From: Candidatus Moraniibacteriota bacterium
Lineage (GTDB): Bacteria > Patescibacteriota > Minisyncoccia > JAHIHE01 > DAOVOJ01
DNA: 33,256 nt
Direction of reading: 5' to 3'
Assembly: GCA_030629775.1 (NCBI GenBank)
Contig: DAOVOJ010000005.1
Span: forward strand, 1-33,256
Part shown: positions 6,330 through 29,189 of the stretch, in pieces
How positions within the stretch are numbered: the stretch's first letter is position 1
Layout: each line of letters begins with the position of its first letter
Made by a program: the position numbers and the translations under genes
The notes under the pieces: generated by a model
What the model was told of the DNA's origin: nothing
Seen by the model: only the letters and a program-made list of their open reading frames with translations
The model's database searches: none

Positions 6330-6347
6330 GGGTTATTTTTACCGATT

Positions 6348-6425
6348 ATTCCCCTCTTAGGAGGGGCTAGGGGTGGGTCTTTTCGCTAATTTAACCCACC
6401 CCCAACCCCCTCCCAAGAGGGGAAT
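6348..6425. repeat. Family A palindromic element, two inverted arms
   Basis: attcccctcttaggaggggctaggggtgggt ... acccacccccaaccccctcccaagaggggaat; arms are near-perfect reverse complements. Confidence 0.9.
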
Positions 6426-6458: not shown

Positions 6459-7664
6459 ATGAAATTTAAATATAAAGCAAGATCAATAAAAGGCGAGGAG
6501 CAAACAGGAAAAATTGAAGCGGACAGTAAAGACAGAGTGGCAGAATTACTTCAAAAGCATAAAATGGTGGTTACATCTATTGAGCCTGTTAAAGATTTTT
6601 TTTCTTTCTCTAAAATTTCTTTCCTTTTACACAGAGTCAGCAACAAGAAAATAGTAATGTTTTCCAAGGAGCTCTCTGTTTTGCTTTTGGCGGGAATACC
6701 TCTTGTAGAAGCCCTGAGAATACAACACGCGCAGGAGGAAAATCTTCATTTCAGAAAACAAATATCTGAAATCGCCAATATGATTGATGACGGTTCTTCT
6801 TTTTCAGCCGCCTTGTCTTGTTATCCAAAAACATTTTCAGATTTCTATGTCAACATTGTTAGATCCGGGGAAACATCCGGAAAAATGCAGGAGTCGCTTC
6901 TTCATCTGGCGGATTATATTGAAAAACAGTATCTTCTAAATAGCAAAGTTAAAAACGCTTTGATGTATCCCGCCGTTATTTTAGGGGGGTTTGGTTTAGT
7001 CGGCGCGGGAATGATGGCCTTCGTGGTGCCGCAATTAGTTGTTATGTTTGAAGAAAATGAGCAGGAACTTCCTCTTCCCACAAAAATTGTGATCGCTATC
7101 AGTGATTTTATGCAAAATAATTTCGTTTTATTTATTTTGTCGGTAGTCGCTTTTATCTATATTGTTAAAAAATATATCAGCACTCCCGGCGGAAAAGAAA
7201 AATTAGACAAATTTATTTTCAAAATCCCGCAATTTAATTCCTTATTTAAAAAGTTTTATGTGGCGCGTTTTGCGGAAAATCTCTCAATGCTTATTAACAG
7301 CGGAATTCCTATAATTGATTCTTTAAGAATATCCGGTGATGTTGTCGGCAATGAAGTTTATAAAAAAATAATTTATGACAGTGTTGAAGAGGTAAAAACG
7401 GGAGGTTCTATTGCCTACGCTTTTGAGAGGAGCGATGATCTGCCGCCGCTTGTGCCAAGAATGATAAAGGTTGGAGAAAAATCCGGAAAACTTGATATGG
7501 TTTTAAAAGATGTCGCTGATTTTTACACTAAAGAAGTTGACATAGCGGTTGACGGGCTGATGGCTCTCATAGAACCGATTTTAATATTTGTTCTTGGCGC
7601 CGGAGTTGGCATTCTTGTCGCCGCTATTTTATTGCCCATATATCAAATGACTTCAATGATTTAA
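6459..7664 (+). CDS. pilC: Type II secretion / type IV pilus inner-membrane platform protein (GspF/PilC family)
   Basis: 'MKFKYKARSIKGEEQTGKIEADSKD', 'FSKELSVLLLAGIPLVEALRI', 'MIKVGEKSGKLDMVLKDVADFYTKEVD', 'LIEPILIFVLGAGVGILVAAILLPIYQM'. Confidence 0.95.
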   Translation: MKFKYKARSIKGEEQTGKIEADSKDRVAELLQKHKMVVTSIEPVKDFFSFSKISFLLHRVSNKKIVMFSKELSVLLLAGIPLVEALRIQHAQEENLHFRKQISEIANMIDDGSSFSAALSCYPKTFSDFYVNIVRSGETSGKMQESLLHLADYIEKQYLLNSKVKNALMYPAVILGGFGLVGAGMMAFVVPQLVVMFEENEQELPLPTKIVIAISDFMQNNFVLFILSVVAFIYIVKKYISTPGGKEKLDKFIFKIPQFNSLFKKFYVARFAENLSMLINSGIPIIDSLRISGDVVGNEVYKKIIYDSVEEVKTGGSIAYAFERSDDLPPLVPRMIKVGEKSGKLDMVLKDVADFYTKEVDIAVDGLMALIEPILIFVLGAGVGILVAAILLPIYQMTSMI

Positions 7665-7665
7665 A

Positions 7666-7764
7666 CTTGGAACTTATAACTTATACATTTATAATGTAAA
7701 TTCCAAGCTCTATGTTCTAAATTCCAAGCTCTATGTTCCAAGCTCCAAGCTCCAAGTTCCAAGA
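7666..7764. repeat. Degenerate tandem/inverted short-repeat array (ttccaagct / aagttcc units)
   Basis: ttggaacttataacttatac...aaattccaagctctatgttctaaattccaagctctatgttccaagctccaagctccaagttccaag. Confidence 0.85.
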
Positions 7765-8296
7765 CAAGGGTTTTACTCTTATTGAATTAATTTTAGTTAT
7801 GGCTATTGCGGGAATAATGTCTGTTGTGGTTGTTTCTCAATATAGCCAGCAACGCGATTACAAAGCGTTGCTTTTGGGCGAAGAGCAAATTGCGAATGAT
7901 ATAAGAATGGCGCAAAGTTATTCCTATAACATCTTGATGGATAACGGATCTTTTTCTGTCGGCGGATATGGAATTAATTTTTCAAGCGCTGCGGGTTCAA
8001 ATAATAAATATATTATTTTTGCTGATAAGGATGGTGATAAAGAATATGACAGCGGTGATGAAAAATTTGAAGAGATCGAGCTTCCTAGAAATACTAATAT
8101 TACATCTTTGAAAATAAATAATACGGAGGAGGCTGATAAAACTGTTGATTTGGTTTTTGTGCCGCCTTATGGAGAAGTGTTTATGGATAAGGAAAATAAA
8201 ATAAGTGGAAGCTTTATAAAACTGGAGATTAAAATTGAAAATTCTGATGGTCTTACTAAAATTATTGAAGCGAGCAGTTCTAGATTGATAAAATAA
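7733..8296 (+). CDS. Prepilin-like / GspH-type pseudopilin
   Basis: 'KGFTLIELILVMAIAGIMSVVVV' prepilin peptidase site and hydrophobic helix. Confidence 0.9.
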   Translation: MFQAPSSKFQDKGFTLIELILVMAIAGIMSVVVVSQYSQQRDYKALLLGEEQIANDIRMAQSYSYNILMDNGSFSVGGYGINFSSAAGSNNKYIIFADKDGDKEYDSGDEKFEEIELPRNTNITSLKINNTEEADKTVDLVFVPPYGEVFMDKENKISGSFIKLEIKIENSDGLTKIIEASSSRLIK

Positions 8297-8873: not shown

Positions 8874-8894
8874 GGTGTAATTTTGAATTACGAA

Positions 8895-9178
8895 CCGTCA
8901 TTGCGAGGAGCCCGAACGAACGCAGTTCGCGAGAAGGCGACGTGGCAATCCCGTTGTTATACACCGTCATTGCGAGGCGATAGCCGTGGCAATCTCGTGA
9001 CAATATCTCGAAGTTTTATGATTCATGGCACGGGATTGCCGCGCTCCGTTCCGTCCCATTCCAAAATTTACAAGATTACTTATTGGTATATAATATTTTA
9101 ATTACTTTGTATCATTTATTATTGCCATACTGCATTATAAATTTTGGAACGGGACTCCACTTCGCTTGCAATGACGGT
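8895..9178. repeat. Family B composite palindromic element (TCATTGCGAGG type), copy 1, with an extra half-element and an apparent nested insertion
   Basis: ccgtcattgcgaggag...gtggcaatcccg; accgtcattgcgaggcgatagccgtggcaatctcgtga; cacgggattgccgcgctccgttccg...ctccacttcgcttgcaatgacgg. Confidence 0.88.
9054..9154. repeat. Candidate nested 101-bp element bounded by 17-bp inverted repeats
   Basis: tcccattccaaaattta (9054-9070) versus taaattttggaacggga (9138-9154), 16/17 complementary. Confidence 0.6.
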
Positions 9179-9855: not shown

Positions 9856-9870
9856 TAATTAAAACTTTTT

Positions 9871-10026
9871 ATTCCCCTCTTGGGAGGGGCTAGGGGTGGG
9901 TTTTATAAATAGATTATTTATTAACGAATTAACGAATTAACGAATTCAATCCGTTAATCCGTTAGTCCGTTAATTTTTCAATTTCTTAATAACCCACCCC
10001 CAACCCCCTCCCGAGAGGGGAGTTAT
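9871..10026. repeat. Family A palindromic element with a second tandem/inverted 8-mer array in its loop
   Basis: Outer arms attcccctcttgggaggggctaggggtgggtt / aacccacccccaaccccctcccgagaggggagt; loop attaacga x3 then ccgttaat x3. Confidence 0.9.
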
Positions 10027-10640: not shown

Positions 10641-10645
10641 AAAAT

Positions 10646-10720
10646 CGTGTAACGCATAACGTGTAACGTGTAACGAAAACATGTCAAAATTTTGCGTTAT
10701 ACGCCATACGTTATACGTGT
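10646..10720. repeat. Tandem/inverted short-repeat array between tRNA genes (cgtataacg type)
   Basis: cgtgtaacgcataacgtgtaacgtgtaacg ... tgcgttatacgccatacgttatacgtgt. Confidence 0.85.
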
Positions 10721-10793
10721 AGCAGGGGCGGGGGTCGAACCCGCAACCTCGGGCTTATGAGTCCCGCGCTCTAACCAACTGAGCTACCCTGCC
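10720..10793 (-). tRNA. tRNA-Met(CAT), elongator-like
   Basis: Reverse strand GGCAGGGTAGCTCAGTTGGTTAGAGCGCGGGACTCATAAGCCCGAGGTTGCGGGTTCGACCCCCGCCCCTGCTA; loop CTCATAA; CCA not encoded. Confidence 0.93.
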
Positions 10794-10798
10794 TTTTC

Positions 10799-10930
10799 TT
10801 GGAACTTATAACTTATAACTCATAACTTGGAACTTATACATTTGTAATATAAATTTTAAGTTCCAATTTCCAAGCTTTAGGTTTTAAGTTCCAAGTTCCA
10901 AGTTCCAAGTTCCAAGCTTTAAGTTCTAAG
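10799..10930. repeat. Tandem/inverted short-repeat array (aagttcc / ggaactt units)
   Basis: ttggaacttataacttataactcataacttggaacttatac ... ttaagttccaagttccaagttccaagttccaagctttaagttctaag; related to the array at 7666-7764. Confidence 0.88.
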
Positions 10931-10937
10931 ATATCTG

Positions 10938-11091: not shown

Positions 11092-11193
11092 CATATTAAC
11101 ATACTAACATCTTAACATTTTAACATCTTAACATATATAAATAAGAAAGGATTTTAAATATTATTTTGTTAGTATGTTAAAATGTTAAAATGA
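11092..11193. repeat. Tandem/inverted short-repeat array (ttaacat / atgttaa units) ending just before yraN
   Basis: attaacatactaacatcttaacattttaacatcttaacat ... gttagtatgttaaaatgttaaaatg. Confidence 0.85.
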
Positions 11194-11197
11194 TCTT

Positions 11198-11590
11198 ATG
11201 ATTACTTTTCGTCGGGAGTTAGGCAATTTGGGGGAAAGATTAGCCTGTGAATATTTAGAAAAACAAGGTTATGAAATTGTTGCTCGCAATTATCAAAAAA
11301 AATGCGGAGAAATTGATCTGATCGCCAAAAAAAATAAGATCATTATTTTTATTGAAGTTAAAACAAGAAGCAAAAATAAAAACTGGGAGTGCGGGCTGCC
11401 GGAGGAAGCGGTTAATTTTTCCAAACAAAGGAAAATAATTAGAACCGCCCGATCATATCTTTTTGAAAATCATTATTCCGGCAAAACGGACTGGCAGATC
11501 GATATCATTGCCATATGGCTGGATTGGGAAACCAGACGAGCGAGCCTCAATCATATTAAAAACGCGGTGGTTTATGACAGATGCTGGTAA
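11198..11590 (+). CDS. yraN: YraN/UPF0102 family endonuclease-like protein
   Basis: 'RRELGNLGERLACEYLEKQGYEIVARNYQKKCGEIDLIAKKNKIIIFIEVKTRSKN'. Confidence 0.93.
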   Translation: MITFRRELGNLGERLACEYLEKQGYEIVARNYQKKCGEIDLIAKKNKIIIFIEVKTRSKNKNWECGLPEEAVNFSKQRKIIRTARSYLFENHYSGKTDWQIDIIAIWLDWETRRASLNHIKNAVVYDRCW

Positions 11591-11600
11591 AAGATGGGAT

Positions 11601-11852
11601 AATGAATTAAGAATCACGAATTAAGAATCATTTTGAATTACAAACTGTCATTGCGAGGAGCTCAAGCGAACGCAGTTCGCGAGAAAGCGACGCGGCAATC
11701 CCGTCATTTAATTCTTTGATTTATGGCACGGGATTGCCGCGCTTTGTTCCGCTATCGCTCCACTTCGCTCGCAATGACGGTAAAATTTAAGTTTCGTAAT
11801 CCAATGGAGTTAGGAATTTTCTATTCGTAATTCTTGATTCGTTATTCATAAT
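11601..11852. repeat. Family B palindromic element copy 2 (core about 11630-11803) nested inside an inverted 'gaattaagaatca' array
   Basis: Outer aatgaattaagaatcacgaattaagaatca ... attcgtaattcttgattcgttattcataattct; core ctgtcattgcgaggag...cggcaatcccg / cacgggattgccgcgc...cgctcgcaatgacgg. Confidence 0.88.
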
Positions 11853-12873: not shown

Positions 12874-12911
12874 TCCCCTCCTTAGTAAGGAGGGGGCAGG
12901 GGGGAGGTTGT
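12874..12911. repeat. Family A half-element
   Basis: tcccctccttagtaaggagggggcaggggggaggttg. Confidence 0.8.
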
Positions 12912-13017
12912 AGAAATAAAATTGTTATATTGTTATATTGTTGGGTGATAGAAGCAGTTCTTGGTAATACAGTAATTGAATGTTTAAATGTTAAAATGTT
13001 AAGATATTAAATGACTT

Positions 13018-13089
13018 GCCCTGATAGCTCAACGGATAGAGCACCGCACTCCTAACGCGATGATGTAGGTTCGATTCCTACTCGGGGCA
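13018..13089 (+). tRNA. tRNA-Arg(CCT) with weakened anticodon stem
   Basis: GCCCTGATAGCTCAACGGATAGAGCACCGCACTCCTAACGCGATGATGTAGGTTCGATTCCTACTCGGGGCA; acceptor and T stems intact; loop CTCCTAA. Confidence 0.85.
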
Positions 13090-13093
13090 CAAT

Positions 13094-13168
13094 TCGTATA
13101 ACGTATAACGTATAACGTAAATTCCATCAATGTTTTGTGTTACACGTTATACGCTATACGTTACACGA
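13094..13168. repeat. Tandem/inverted short-repeat array between tRNA-Arg and tRNA-Ala (cgtataacg type)
   Basis: cgtataacgtataacgtataacgta ... tgtgttacacgttatacgctatacgttacacg; similar to 10646-10720. Confidence 0.87.
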
Positions 13169-13353: not shown

Positions 13354-14187
13354 ATGAAACTCATTACTTCTCTTAACAATTTCATCTTAGACATTCTTTT
13401 TCCTATCAAATGTCTTGGCTGCGGGAAAGAGTTTGAAGATAGGGAACCAAAGGAGAGGTGGGTTTGCGATGATTGTCTGAGTAAAATAATTATTAGAAAA
13501 GAACAGGTTTGTCCGGTTTGCGAGAAAGCTTCTGAAGGCGGGAAAACCTGCTGGTATTGCCGAAAGAAAACCGGATTGGATGGGCTGTGGGTCGCTTCGG
13601 AATACAGTGATAAACTTTTAGCTCAGACTATCCATAAATTCAAATTTAATTTTGTCAGGGACTTATCTTATCCTCTTGGCAAGATAATTTTAAAAAGTGT
13701 TTTAGAGCAGGAGGAATTTGGCGATTTTCAGGATTTTTTATTTACTCGTTCGGTCCAAAATTTAGAAGAGGATTTAGAAAACACAGATTCTTTCAAGAGC
13801 GCTAAATCTTTTCAGACAATTATTGTTCCGGTTCCGCTTCATCGACGAAGATTTAATTGGCGGGGATTCAATCAGTCGGAGTTGTTGGCCAAGCAAATCG
13901 CCGCGAAGTCCGGCTTGAAAGTTTATAATAATTTGTTAATTCGTTGGCGAAACACTACGCCGCAAACGAAAATCAGATCAATGGAAGAGAGGAGAAAAAA
14001 TATCAAAGGCGCTTTTAAAGTTGTAAGGATGGGTTTGAAACCCATCCCTACGGGATTATTAAAAAATAAAAACATCATCATAGTTGACGATGTTTGCACA
14101 ACGCTGGCGACTTTAAATGAATGCGCTTTAGCGGTCAAACGAGCCGGGGCGAAGAATGTTTGGGGAGTGGTGGTAGCGAGGAGGTGA
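13354..14187 (+). CDS. comF: ComF family amidophosphoribosyltransferase-like protein
   Basis: Zn-finger 'CLGCGKEF...CDDCL...CPVCEKAS...CWYCRKK', 'PVPLHRRRFNWRGFNQSELLAKQIA', PRPP-loop-like 'NIIIVDDVCTTLATLNECALAVKRAGAKNVWGVVVAR'. Confidence 0.92.
   Translation: MKLITSLNNFILDILFPIKCLGCGKEFEDREPKERWVCDDCLSKIIIRKEQVCPVCEKASEGGKTCWYCRKKTGLDGLWVASEYSDKLLAQTIHKFKFNFVRDLSYPLGKIILKSVLEQEEFGDFQDFLFTRSVQNLEEDLENTDSFKSAKSFQTIIVPVPLHRRRFNWRGFNQSELLAKQIAAKSGLKVYNNLLIRWRNTTPQTKIRSMEERRKNIKGAFKVVRMGLKPIPTGLLKNKNIIIVDDVCTTLATLNECALAVKRAGAKNVWGVVVARR
14023..14051. repeat. Family D palindrome inside comF
   Basis: gtaaggatgggtttgaaacccatccctac; 10-bp perfect arms around a single G, extending to 14 bp with one mismatch. 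Confidence 0.9.
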
Positions 14188-14258
14188 GTAAAATGAAAAG
14201 CAATGGATTATTTTGAAATATAAAACATAAATAAAACATAAAATGTTATACTTGTTAA

Positions 14259-14382
14259 AAAATTACAAATTCAAAATTCCAAACAAATCCAAAATCCAAA
14301 TATTCAAAATTCTAAACTGTTTTGAATTTTGAATTTCGGTCATTGTAATTTATTTGTAATTTGGAATTTTGAATTTAGTGCT
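14259..14382. repeat. Short tandem/inverted repeat region (attcaaaatt / aattttgaat units)
   Basis: aaattacaaattcaaaattccaaacaaatccaaaatccaaatattcaaaattc ... gaattttgaatttcggtcattgtaatttatttgtaatttggaattttgaattt. Confidence 0.8.
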
Positions 14383-18671: not shown

Positions 18672-18679
18672 ACACACAT

Positions 18680-18768
18680 TTCCCCTCCTTGCGAAGGAGG
18701 GGACTAAGGGGAGGTTGAATCTTTATTTATAAACCACCCCTACCCCCTCCTTGCTAAGGAGGGGAAAA
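18680..18768. repeat. Family A palindromic element, two inverted arms
   Basis: ttcccctccttgcgaaggaggggactaaggggaggttg ... aaaccacccctaccccctccttgctaaggaggggaaa. Confidence 0.9.
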
Positions 18769-25530: not shown

Positions 25531-26224
25531 AAGCGTGGCAGGAAATTATGTCTACAGCTTTACCGCCGTTGCGGGGACGACGGCCGTAAGTTCATTTAGT
25601 AAAACGGTGACTGTTACTTTTAAATATGCTAATGAGCAAATAGCCGGATTAAACGAAGGATCGTTGCAGATTCACTATTGGGATGATACAACAAACGTGT
25701 GGGTTGCTTTGGCAGACAGCGCGGTTAATACCGCTACGAATACTGTTACCGCCACGACAACTCACTTCACTTATTTTGCAATCTTAGGAACGCAAACGAG
25801 TGAAGGCGAAGGCGGTGAAACCACCACCGAAGTCATAGACGGCGATATTATCCAATGCGAGACTTCAGATAATCCTTTCGCTGTTTACATCGTCAAAGTT
25901 GTCGGAGACACCAAATACATCCGACACATTGTTTCTCTTGAGATCTTCAACTACTACGAACATCTTGATTGGAATAATCTGAAACAGGTTGATTCTCTGA
26001 CCAACTATTCATTATCCGGCTGGGCAAGAGTAAACACCGGTCCAAACAACACTCCCGGACCAACCGACAAGGTTTATGAAATTAACGGCGACCAGTCCAA
26101 ACACTGGATCAATATGACCGCTGAACAATTCCTAACCCACGGAGGATCTGATTCTGCAATCTACACAGTCAATCAAGGAGAATTAAATCTTTACACGACT
26201 GGTCCTGATGTGATGAGTTTGTAG
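25481..26224 (+). CDS. Probable continuation (+1 frame) of the giant surface protein; ORF track start is GTG 25535
   Basis: Frame 2 reads QKTKTSITASRPVSSGKSVAGNYVYSFTAVAGTTAVSSFSKTVTVTFKYANEQ without a stop from the A6 tract, continuous in style with upstream 'ENATITVSP'. Confidence 0.75.
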   Translation, partial: QKTKTSITASRPVSSGKSVAGNYVYSFTAVAGTTAVSSFSKTVTVTFKYANEQIAGLNEGSLQIHYWDDTTNVWVALADSAVNTATNTVTATTTHFTYFAILGTQTSEGEGGETTTEVIDGDIIQCETSDNPFAVYIVKVVGDTKYIRHIVSLEIFNYYEHLDWNNLKQVDSLTNYSLSGWARVNTGPNNTPGPTDKVYEINGDQSKHWINMTAEQFLTHGGSDSAIYTVNQGELNLYTTGPDVMSL

Positions 26225-26250
26225 AGACGCCGATTCATCGCGTCTCTACA
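26220..26250. repeat. Family F palindrome overlapping the stop codon
   Basis: tgtagagacgccgattcatcgcgtctctaca; TAG stop at 26222-26224 lies in the left arm. Confidence 0.85.
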
Positions 26251-26393: not shown

Positions 26394-29189
26394 ATGAACA
26401 AACACAAAGCCAAAGAAAACATTTCAGAATTGGTTAAAAAATATAATAGAATTGCCAAAGCTGGAAAAGTTAAATCTTATAACGAGGCTCAAACACGCAT
26501 TGAATTTATTGAGCCGCTTTTTGGTTTTCTCGGGTGGGATATGCGGAACGCGAATAATGATAATGAAGTTACGACTGAGGAAACAATTTCCAGGGGCAGA
26601 GTTGATCTGGCGTTTCGGATCAATGGAATTCCAAAGTTTTTTCTGGAAGCGAAATCATTGAAATCAGATTTGGATATTGAAAGCTACGCGCGGCAAGCGA
26701 TTAATTATTCATGGAACAAGGGAATAAATTGGGCGATGCTGACTGATTTTGAAGGCATTAAGGTTTTTAACGCCAATGCCAAATCAAAATCTTTGAGAGA
26801 TAAAATGGTGTTTGAAATTCCTTACGACGAATACACCAGCGACTTTGAACGGTTATGGCTTCTTTCCAGAGAAAGTTTTGAAAAAAACGCTCTTGATATT
26901 TACGCGGAAAAACATGGTAAAAAATCCAAAAGCCTTACTGTGAATGAAAAACTTTTTGGCGATTTAAAACAAGCTAGAGAAATTCTGACAAAAAGTTTTA
27001 ATAACTGGAAAGAATATTGGGATAAGAATAAAAATATTGACCAAGAGACGCTGGACGAAGGAGTGCAAAGAATTATAGACCGCCTTGTGTTTATCAGAGT
27101 TTTGGAAGATAAAAAATTAGAACCGCCGATCCTTAGACCGATTATTCGCGAGTGGGACAAAGACCGCAGCAATAACAAGCAATTATTTCAAATGCTTACG
27201 GAAAAATTCCGCGAATTGGACGACATTTATAATTCCAGCCTTTTTACCAAGCATGCCTGCGAGGATTGGGAGGAATATGATGACGCCACAAAAAAAGCGA
27301 TTGAGTTGCTTTATGGAAACGATGTCTACGAATACAATTTCAAAGAAATTCCGGCGGATATTTTGGGCGGAGTGTATGAAAGCTATCTCGGCTATATTGC
27401 TCAAAAGCCGATTAAAGCAGGCGTAGGGATGGGTTTGAAACCCATCCCTGCTAAAGATAAAAAGGCTTTAAAAATAAAATCTCGCAAGAAAAGGAAAGAG
27501 CAGGGGATTTATTACACGCCTAATTTTATCGTGGATTATATTATCAAAAACACTTTGGGAAAGAAACTGGAAGAAATTGAAAATATAAACGATCTGAAAC
27601 AAATTAAAATTCTAGACCCCGCCTGCGGTTCCGGGTCTTTTCTCATCAAAGCGCTGGAAACGGTCAATGAAAAATACAAAGACTTTAATAATCCCGGCGA
27701 CCAATACACCAAAAGTGGAATTCTCTTAGGAAATATTTACGGCGTTGACCTTGACCCGCAAGCGGTGGAGCTGGCGAAACTCAATTTGCTCATCGGCGCG
27801 CTGGATCAAAAAGCCAAACTTCCAAATTTAACCGACAATATCCGTGTGGGCAATTCCTTGATTTCCGGTTCGGAAAAAGAGCTTAAAAAATATTTCGGCA
27901 AAAACTGGCGCGACAAAAAACCGTTTAATTGGGAAGAGGAATTTCTCTTCTGTCATTCCCGTGAAAACGGGAATCCAGAAAGCGGGTTTGATGTGATTAT
28001 TGGGAACCCGCCGTATGTTAGAAATAGAGATTTAGATGAAAAAGATAAAAATTTATTTAATGAAAAGTATTATTCTGCTCATGGTCAATATGATATTTAC
28101 CAGTTGTTTTTTGAACAATCAATAAAACTTTTAAAGGAAAATGGTTTTTTGGGATTTATTACTTCCAATAAATATGCCATTGCTGATTATGGAAAAAAGC
28201 TAAGAGAATTTATTTTGGATAATTGCAAAATAGTTTCTATTATTGATGTTTCCAGTCTTCAAGTTTTCAAAGATGCTTCTACTTATCCGTATATTATTAT
28301 TTTACAGAAAACAAAAAACAATTCTGGAAATATTATAAAAGGATATAAAGCGAGCAATGAATTAGATTTTAGTGATAATAAAGTTTTGATAAATCAAGAC
28401 GATATTAAAAACAGTCAAACTAAAAACTTTGTGATTAAGAAAGAGTTAAAATTTTTGAAAGATGTTGAGAAGAGGTCTGTAAAACTAGGCGAGATTGCGA
28501 CAATTAAAGAGACAATCCATACAGGCAATATTAGGAATAAATTGATAGTTGATAAAAAGATTGATGAAACTTGTAAAAAATTATTGGCTGGTAAAGATTG
28601 CCATCGTTATATGTTTAAATGGAATGGCAAATATGTTCGGTATGATCAAGGTTTGATTGATAAGAGTAAGAAAGAATATGCTAATCTTTGTGGTAAAGAA
28701 TATTTTGAAAAACCGAAAATCTTATTGAGGGACATTTCAAAATATCCCGAAGCAGTTCTTGATAAAGAAAAATATTATAGTGTCAATACACTTTATTCCA
28801 TACAGTCAAAAGAAAAGGATTACAGTTTGTATTATTTGATGGCGCTTATAAATTCCAAACTAATATCTTTCTATTTTCACCAAAAATTTGAAAATGCTCA
28901 TATAAGCGGTGGATTTTTAAGATTCAAGAAAATATACACTTCTCAAATCCCAATTTACAAAATAGACTTTTCTGACAAAAAAGAAAAAGCCAAATATAAC
29001 AATTTGGCAAAATTAGCAGATAAAATGTTAAATCTCAACAAACAACTCCAATCAACCCCCGAAAATTCTGATAAGTGGAATGGGATTAAGAAGGAAATTG
29101 AGAAAGTTGATGGGGAGATTAATAAAAATGTTTTTGAGTTGTATGGGTTGGGAGAGGAAGAGATTGAGATAATTAAGGGAAAAAATTAA
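26394..29189 (+). CDS. Type IIG-like restriction-modification enzyme (N-terminal PD-(D/E)XK-like nuclease, N6-adenine methylase, specificity region)
   Basis: Nuclease-like 'GRVDLAFRINGIPKFFLEAKSLK'; MTase motif I 'LDPACGSGSFLIKAL'; 'GVDLDPQAVELAKLNLLI'; motif IV 'FDVIIGNPPYV'; C-terminal TaqI/Eco57I-like target-recognition region. Confidence 0.92.
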   Translation: MNKHKAKENISELVKKYNRIAKAGKVKSYNEAQTRIEFIEPLFGFLGWDMRNANNDNEVTTEETISRGRVDLAFRINGIPKFFLEAKSLKSDLDIESYARQAINYSWNKGINWAMLTDFEGIKVFNANAKSKSLRDKMVFEIPYDEYTSDFERLWLLSRESFEKNALDIYAEKHGKKSKSLTVNEKLFGDLKQAREILTKSFNNWKEYWDKNKNIDQETLDEGVQRIIDRLVFIRVLEDKKLEPPILRPIIREWDKDRSNNKQLFQMLTEKFRELDDIYNSSLFTKHACEDWEEYDDATKKAIELLYGNDVYEYNFKEIPADILGGVYESYLGYIAQKPIKAGVGMGLKPIPAKDKKALKIKSRKKRKEQGIYYTPNFIVDYIIKNTLGKKLEEIENINDLKQIKILDPACGSGSFLIKALETVNEKYKDFNNPGDQYTKSGILLGNIYGVDLDPQAVELAKLNLLIGALDQKAKLPNLTDNIRVGNSLISGSEKELKKYFGKNWRDKKPFNWEEEFLFCHSRENGNPESGFDVIIGNPPYVRNRDLDEKDKNLFNEKYYSAHGQYDIYQLFFEQSIKLLKENGFLGFITSNKYAIADYGKKLREFILDNCKIVSIIDVSSLQVFKDASTYPYIIILQKTKNNSGNIIKGYKASNELDFSDNKVLINQDDIKNSQTKNFVIKKELKFLKDVEKRSVKLGEIATIKETIHTGNIRNKLIVDKKIDETCKKLLAGKDCHRYMFKWNGKYVRYDQGLIDKSKKEYANLCGKEYFEKPKILLRDISKYPEAVLDKEKYYSVNTLYSIQSKEKDYSLYYLMALINSKLISFYFHQKFENAHISGGFLRFKKIYTSQIPIYKIDFSDKKEKAKYNNLAKLADKMLNLNKQLQSTPENSDKWNGIKKEIEKVDGEINKNVFELYGLGEEEIEIIKGKN
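27422..27451. repeat. Family D palindrome inside the type IIG gene
   Basis: cgtagggatgggtttgaaacccatccctgc; same GGATGGGTTTGAAACCCATCC core as in comF. Confidence 0.92.
27951..27981. repeat. Family E palindrome inside the type IIG gene (encodes CHSRENGNPES)
   Basis: tgtcattcccgtgaaaacgggaatccagaaa; ATTCCCGT/ACGGGAAT arms. Confidence 0.9.

Follow-up and report, generated by a model that had tools for sequence, protein, structure and literature searches.

Why should the same palindromic DNA be read in the same frame within two unrelated genes of one bacterial genome? In the window (the whole stretch of 33,256 nucleotides analyzed here), a comF-like gene and a type IIG-like restriction-modification gene each carry such a palindrome (Table 1). 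We conclude, with high confidence, that the palindrome is a 29-nt GTAG-tagged double-foot REP, a non-autonomous single-strand mobile element presumably seeded by a RAYT transposase of subclass 2.4.

Table 1 Coordinates of the host genes and palindromes in the window
Feature	Position	Strand	Location or reading	Basis
comF-like gene, 277 aa, double zinc ribbon and phosphoribosyltransferase domain	13354..14187	+		ORF, Pfam
Double-foot GTAG REP, copy 1	14023..14051	+	within comF; reads V-R-M-G-L-K-P-I-P-T	
Double-foot palindrome with another core (GTAGAGACGCCGATTCATCGCGTCTCTAC)	26221..26249	+	provides the TAG stop codon of ORF 25535-26224	
Type IIG-like restriction-modification gene, 931 aa, HSDR_N, N6_Mtase/Eco57I and TaqI_C	26394..29189	+		ORF, Pfam
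Double-foot GTAG REP, copy 2	27423..27451	+	within type IIG gene; reads V-G-M-G-L-K-P-I-P-A	
CGTC-type REP-like palindrome (GTCATTCCCGTGAAAACGGGAATCC)	27952..27976	+	in frame in type IIG gene; CHSRENGNPE	

The palindrome and its repeat family

The comF copy, GTAAGGATGGGTTTGAAACCCATCCCTAC, is present exactly where the initial annotation had placed it. The type IIG copy, GTAGGGATGGGTTTGAAACCCATCCCTGC, is also real and shares the 21-nt core as claimed, but its span is wider, 27423-27451 instead of 27425-27448. The identical cores occupy 14027-14047 and 27427-27447 (0 expected from 100 shuffles) within a shared run of 23 nt, and mismatches between the copies are limited to positions 4 and 28 of the 29. 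Folded as single-stranded DNA, both copies form hairpins that are better than those of 200 of 200 shuffles, with z-scores of -3.7/-4.3 for copy 1 and -5.3/-5.7 for copy 2.

Both genes singled out in the annotation hold a copy, but these are not the only ones, as this genome (829 kb, assembly about 94% complete) contains nine copies within three mismatches of the 29-nt consensus GTAGGGAYGGGTTTGAAACCCRTCCCTAC, and a reversed-pattern control found 0. Nine is a low copy number for a REP family. Each window copy departs from the consensus once, copy 1 by GTAA for GTAG and copy 2 by CTGC for CTAC. The consensus has 5' GT[AG]G and 3' C[TC]AC at the hairpin foot, GTAG being paired with CTAC; the copies are mostly of the form GTAGGGA(C/T)..(G/A)TCCCTAC, and the element is nearly the same when read on either strand. 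Seven of the nine copies are intragenic and read through in long ORFs, the hosts being comF, the type IIG gene, a GT4 glycosyltransferase (L011), a 287-residue ORF without an assigned family (L012), PMT_2 (L016), NlpC/P60 (L017) and a sortase (L018), and the remaining two are intergenic or lie ahead of a gene. Among the six hosts with Pfam matches, five have the insert outside the match to the main catalytic domain; in L011 it occupies the space that separates the two glycosyltransferase domains, and copy 2 stands directly ahead of the methyltransferase domain. A looser search for GTAGRG..CYCTAC returned 20 double-foot palindromes with several cores in this genome (2 in the control), among them the one at 26221-26249 in the window, and a plasmid search with a 31-mer gave no match.

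The window contains other repeats as well. The CGTC-type REP-like palindrome in the type IIG gene has five sites within 3 mismatches in this genome, and the peptide that it encodes is absent from type IIG orthologues, so that this gene holds two unrelated coding palindromes. Two repeats at 8880-8954 and 11630-11704, 91% identical to each other, contain GTCATTGCGAGG and end in GCAATCCCGT; they resemble CGTC-type REPs in dimeric form, and have kin at 8957 and 9014/11712. At 6346-6425, 9869-9903, 12874-12902 and 18679-18765, CCCCTCTT(A/G)GGAGGGG and CCCCTCCTT..AAGGAGGGG palindromes with CCCACCCCTA-like tails occur between genes in either orientation. Finally, arrays of short AT-rich units (TTCCAAG, TTATAAC, ATGTTAAA, CGTATAACGT, AATTCCAAA) are found at 7643-7784, 10645-10931, 11092-11200, 12973-13168 and 14258-14376; they are mostly intergenic, and several are close to tRNA genes.

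Insertion into protein linkers and the reading frame

The identity of the two host genes was examined with Pfam, which matched DZR_2 (5.7e-9) and Pribosyltran (4.5e-5, slightly under its curated cut-off) in ComF, and Eco57I (2.2e-45), N6_Mtase (7e-25) and TaqI_C (3.1e-24) in the type IIG protein. GTA is used as a codon in both window copies, giving VRMGLKPIPT and VGMGLKPIPA. The initial annotation had proposed an inserted palindrome that is read through in frame at a variable linker of ComF, and had weighed against this a conserved motif carried by all orthologues. The insertion is borne out and the motif is not, since the peptide occurs in 0 of 29 aligned ComF homologues and in 0 of 10 type IIG homologues, which identifies it as an insertion and not a protein motif. 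Where ComF orthologues within the order have a linker of 9-13 residues, this one has 16, an excess of 7 over the nearest orthologues and of 3 over the longest of the order; in the type IIG protein, the segment from GY to KRKEQG has 31 residues here and 13-16 in the three nearest orthologues, an excess of 15-18. The annotation had expected insertion-free orthologues to define the element length. Such orthologues were indeed found, but as protein-level estimates against sequences of about 50-60% identity their length differences (7 and 15-18, for an element that encodes 10 residues) do not fix it, implying that the adjacent linker sequence has varied too. Solved structures offered weak templates for ComF and, for the type IIG protein, none that spans the insert.

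The shared reading frame, which the initial annotation had emphasized, is true of the two genes but is weak evidence. The TAG of GTAG and the TGA of TTTGAAA close the same frame and leave the other two open, and both open frames are in use: among the intragenic copies, five read VGMGLKPIPT-like and two CRDGFQTRPY-like peptides. Two copies would therefore share a frame at about even odds, and we rejected the common frame as evidence of design. Sequence and selection account for both the shared frame and the read-through, neither of which is peculiar to comF and the type IIG gene.

RAYT transposases and distribution across bacteria

A scan of GTDB representatives matched at least 119 stretches, and near-identical 29-mers were found in at least 12 phyla, single phylum placements being open to error because most of the genomes are metagenome bins. 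The fetched loci include Spirochaetota, Desulfobacterota, Omnitrophota, Pseudomonadota (with the isolate Lamprocystis purpurea DSM 4197), Chloroflexota, Cyanobacteriota (Roseofilum), Gemmatimonadota, Nitrospirota, Acidobacteriota, Hydrogenedentota, Zixibacteria, Glassbacteria and others. One identical sequence, GTAGGGGCGGGTTTGAAACCCGCCCCTAC, accounts for 76 of 84 copies among the matches listed. In the phylum of the window the element is rare (3 of 287 genomes); in its order, 3 of 17 sampled relatives carry it, two of which (G293 and G295) share the GGGAY variant with this genome. The common form in other phyla is GTAGGGGC, from which the copies of this genome differ. In Lamprocystis (L035, L050, L069, L074 and others), a longer conserved repeat, cagacagaccttcgt-element-gtccggttatcacgt, encloses the 29-mer, giving the impression of a REP that sits within a second repeat family.

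The ends of the element are sharp. In the flanks of 71 distinct copies, information is at most 0.05 bit beyond position -1, where 114 of the 142 flanks have a pyrimidine. No target duplication was detected among these copies, as 61 of the 71 share 0 bases across the element and the longest match is 3. Sharp ends without target duplication fit a Y1 HUH enzyme and not a DDE transposase.

Several of the fetched copies lie inside RAYT (Y1_Tnp) genes, always at one site, the loop after the HuH motif. We assembled 52 RAYTs by a directed search of 51 palindrome-carrying genomes and from further stretches; by a strict rule, 23 of the 52 contain a double-foot palindrome between HuH and Y, a proportion that is not a population frequency because element-bearing genomes are over-represented in the sample and the query sequence contained the element as well. 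In-frame insertion within tnpAREP between HuH and Y is thus seen in the RAYT set, and also in a RAYT of this genome with a sister palindrome (L249, below). The motifs that PMC6006769 gives for subclass 2.4 (NH[IFV]H, WQ and YIxNNP) are recognizable in most RAYT loci as MPNHVH..WQR..YI..NP, and we assign these genes to subclass 2.4 putatively, on the motifs and the loop insert.

The palindrome cores vary among the RAYTs, with GGGTTTGAAACCC, GCATGC-, CGCGA- and others. On a RAYT tree built with the loop excluded, the TTTSAAA core requires 3 changes, whereas shuffled labels need 10.3 on average and 0 of 500 shuffles were as low, a result tempered by near-copies and some long branches in the tree. 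A contig of a relative in the same order (G295:C35) begins within a RAYT fragment that has the motifs of the clade (SLSEIIRAFKTFSSRKIN) and carries GTAGGGATGGGTTTGAAACCCATCCCTAC, translated as VGMGLKPIPT, which matches the window consensus letter for letter and also the type IIG peptide. Other RAYTs of the order have cores like those of other dispersed families in this genome (GTCGCGAC and AAAATTTT-like). The best such RAYT of this genome (C59, L249) carries GTAGGGGCACAAAATTTTGTGCCCCTAC twice, once in frame within the loop and once at the flank, and is placed outside the TTTSAAA side of the tree.

A RAYT of the GGGTTTGAAACCC clade was not found in the assembly of this genome, in which two RAYT contigs end beside repeats. 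The cognate RAYT may have been lost, or may lie in an assembly gap, or another RAYT may serve the element. The RAYTs first found in this genome were rejected as cognates, since their flanking palindromes differ. Two further loci of this genome were recorded. At L010 (G000:C44, 1357-1788), a RAYT fragment has a head-to-head dimer, GTAGAGACGAGGC..GCCTCGTCTC, in frame before the catalytic part and a second dimer right after its stop codon; at L008 (G000:C37), a RAYT-like gene has AGATTCCGAATCC..GGATTCGGAATCT hairpins on both sides, without the GTAG foot.

Origin of the copies and comparison with known systems

The proposed mechanism for a RAYT-seeded REP draws on the biochemistry of the enzyme family. 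A subclass 2.4 TnpAREP (RAYT), which is a Y1 HUH transposase, would recognize the hairpin and the GTAG foot in single-stranded DNA, a state that probably arises during replication, and would cut and rejoin the element, placing copies elsewhere without target duplication. Each RAYT clade has its own palindrome core, and copies landing in a protein linker with the frame kept would survive as about ten extra, presumably neutral residues (VGMGLKPIPT-like), comF and the type IIG gene being examples. We also considered that the RAYT-internal copy is the master. Because this copy is translated within the transposase, its daughters would be pre-selected to be stop-free in a coding frame; they would spread as tolerated peptides, and the 29-mer would have crossed at least a dozen phyla with the RAYT gene. 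We hold this extension to be rather doubtful.

Among the other explanations, it is unlikely that the copies were brought in on genes gained by horizontal transfer and have at no time moved within this genome. That no cognate RAYT was found in the assembly and that the element is patchy in the phylum are in keeping with such an arrival, but the GTAGGGA(C/T)..(G/A)TCCCTAC variant is shared with two relatives of the order and is unlike GTAGGGGC, and the copies sit in several unrelated genes, both of which point to amplification inside this lineage. A Rickettsia-type RPE, a coding palindrome adapted for in-frame insertion into proteins, would explain palindromic inserts in frame in unrelated proteins, and two such elements, RPE-4 and RPE-6, belong to the CGTC super-family of REPs. 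The likeness to Rickettsia that the initial annotation pointed out holds for this behavior but not for the sequence class, as the present element has a different core and GTAG/CTAC ends without the CGTC tag and falls in the GTAG REP super-family tied to RAYT subclass 2.4. It is associated with RAYT genes, whereas CGTC repeats are without a transposase association in PMC3733652, and its frame choice fits survivorship; we therefore consider an RPE very unlikely. A MITE moved by a DDE transposase would also be short, palindromic, dispersed and devoid of genes of its own, but the target-site duplication of a MITE is absent, the element has no terminal repeats apart from its own palindrome, and it is HUH transposase genes that are closely associated, making this origin highly improbable. 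We give practically no credence to a conserved GLKPIP motif common to ComF and the restriction enzyme with the palindromic DNA as its by-product, because, despite the same peptide in two proteins, the orthologues lack it, other copies of the DNA are read in the second open frame or lie outside genes, and the element is almost strand-symmetric.

The reading of the palindrome as a RAYT-seeded REP places it within a kind described in PMC3733652, PMC6006769 and PMC8266576. In PMC6006769 (Quentin et al. 2018), double-foot REPs with 5' GTAG and 3' CTAC are substrates of TnpAREP/RAYT subclass 2.4, and REPs occur in frame within subclass 2.4 tnpAREP genes between HuH and Y, where they are suggested to occupy a peripheral variable region. 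The present element resembles these REPs in its GT[AG]G/C[TC]AC feet, long perfect hairpin, in-frame tnpAREP copies and patchy spread over phyla, but differs from those described there in its Patescibacteria-like host, its core GGGTTTGAAACCC, its location mostly in ordinary genes and the cognate RAYT not found in the assembly. The GTAG and CGTC classes of REP are set out in PMC3733652 (Di Nocera et al. 2013), according to which some copies lie within ORFs and the TAG stop is often supplied by GTAG. The GTAG tag, a dispersed palindrome of 20-40 nt, copies in ORFs and the occasional TAG stop are common to those REPs and ours, whereas the classical GTAG REPs of that account have an unpaired tag at one end only and are mainly intergenic, and here GTAG is paired with CTAC and most copies are in genes. 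RPE-4 and RPE-6 share the in-frame palindromic inserts in unrelated proteins, but have the CGTC tag, another sequence and no reported transposase. With the E. coli REP/TnpAREP system (REPtron) the element has in common the GTAG foot, the hairpin and the HUH-Y1 enzyme, for which PMC8266576 provides a cut-and-rejoin biochemical model; in that paper cognate REPs were cut and joined for three other REP/TnpAREP pairs, with enzyme-REP co-evolution. Only one end of the E. coli REP bears GTAG and its stem is bulged, whereas the present element has two feet and a perfect stem.

A literature search on the exact motif returned nothing relevant, and the core, the near-identity across phyla, the association of core and clade within subclass 2.4, and the bias of the copies in a Patescibacteria-like genome towards coding sites do not appear in the available portions of the three papers. 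The kind is already known, and the window element is a new, unusually widespread example of it. It brings coding REPs into a genome that we judge to be Patescibacteria-like from its size, its gene content and the sampled relatives, and in which most copies are in genes, and it means that GLKPIP, GLKPAPT, GFKPAPT and GFETRPY in unrelated predicted proteins of many phyla are translated REP DNA and not a motif. Since the core GGGTTTGAAACCC is tied to one RAYT clade, the specificity of these enzymes is directly testable on substrates that do or do not match them.
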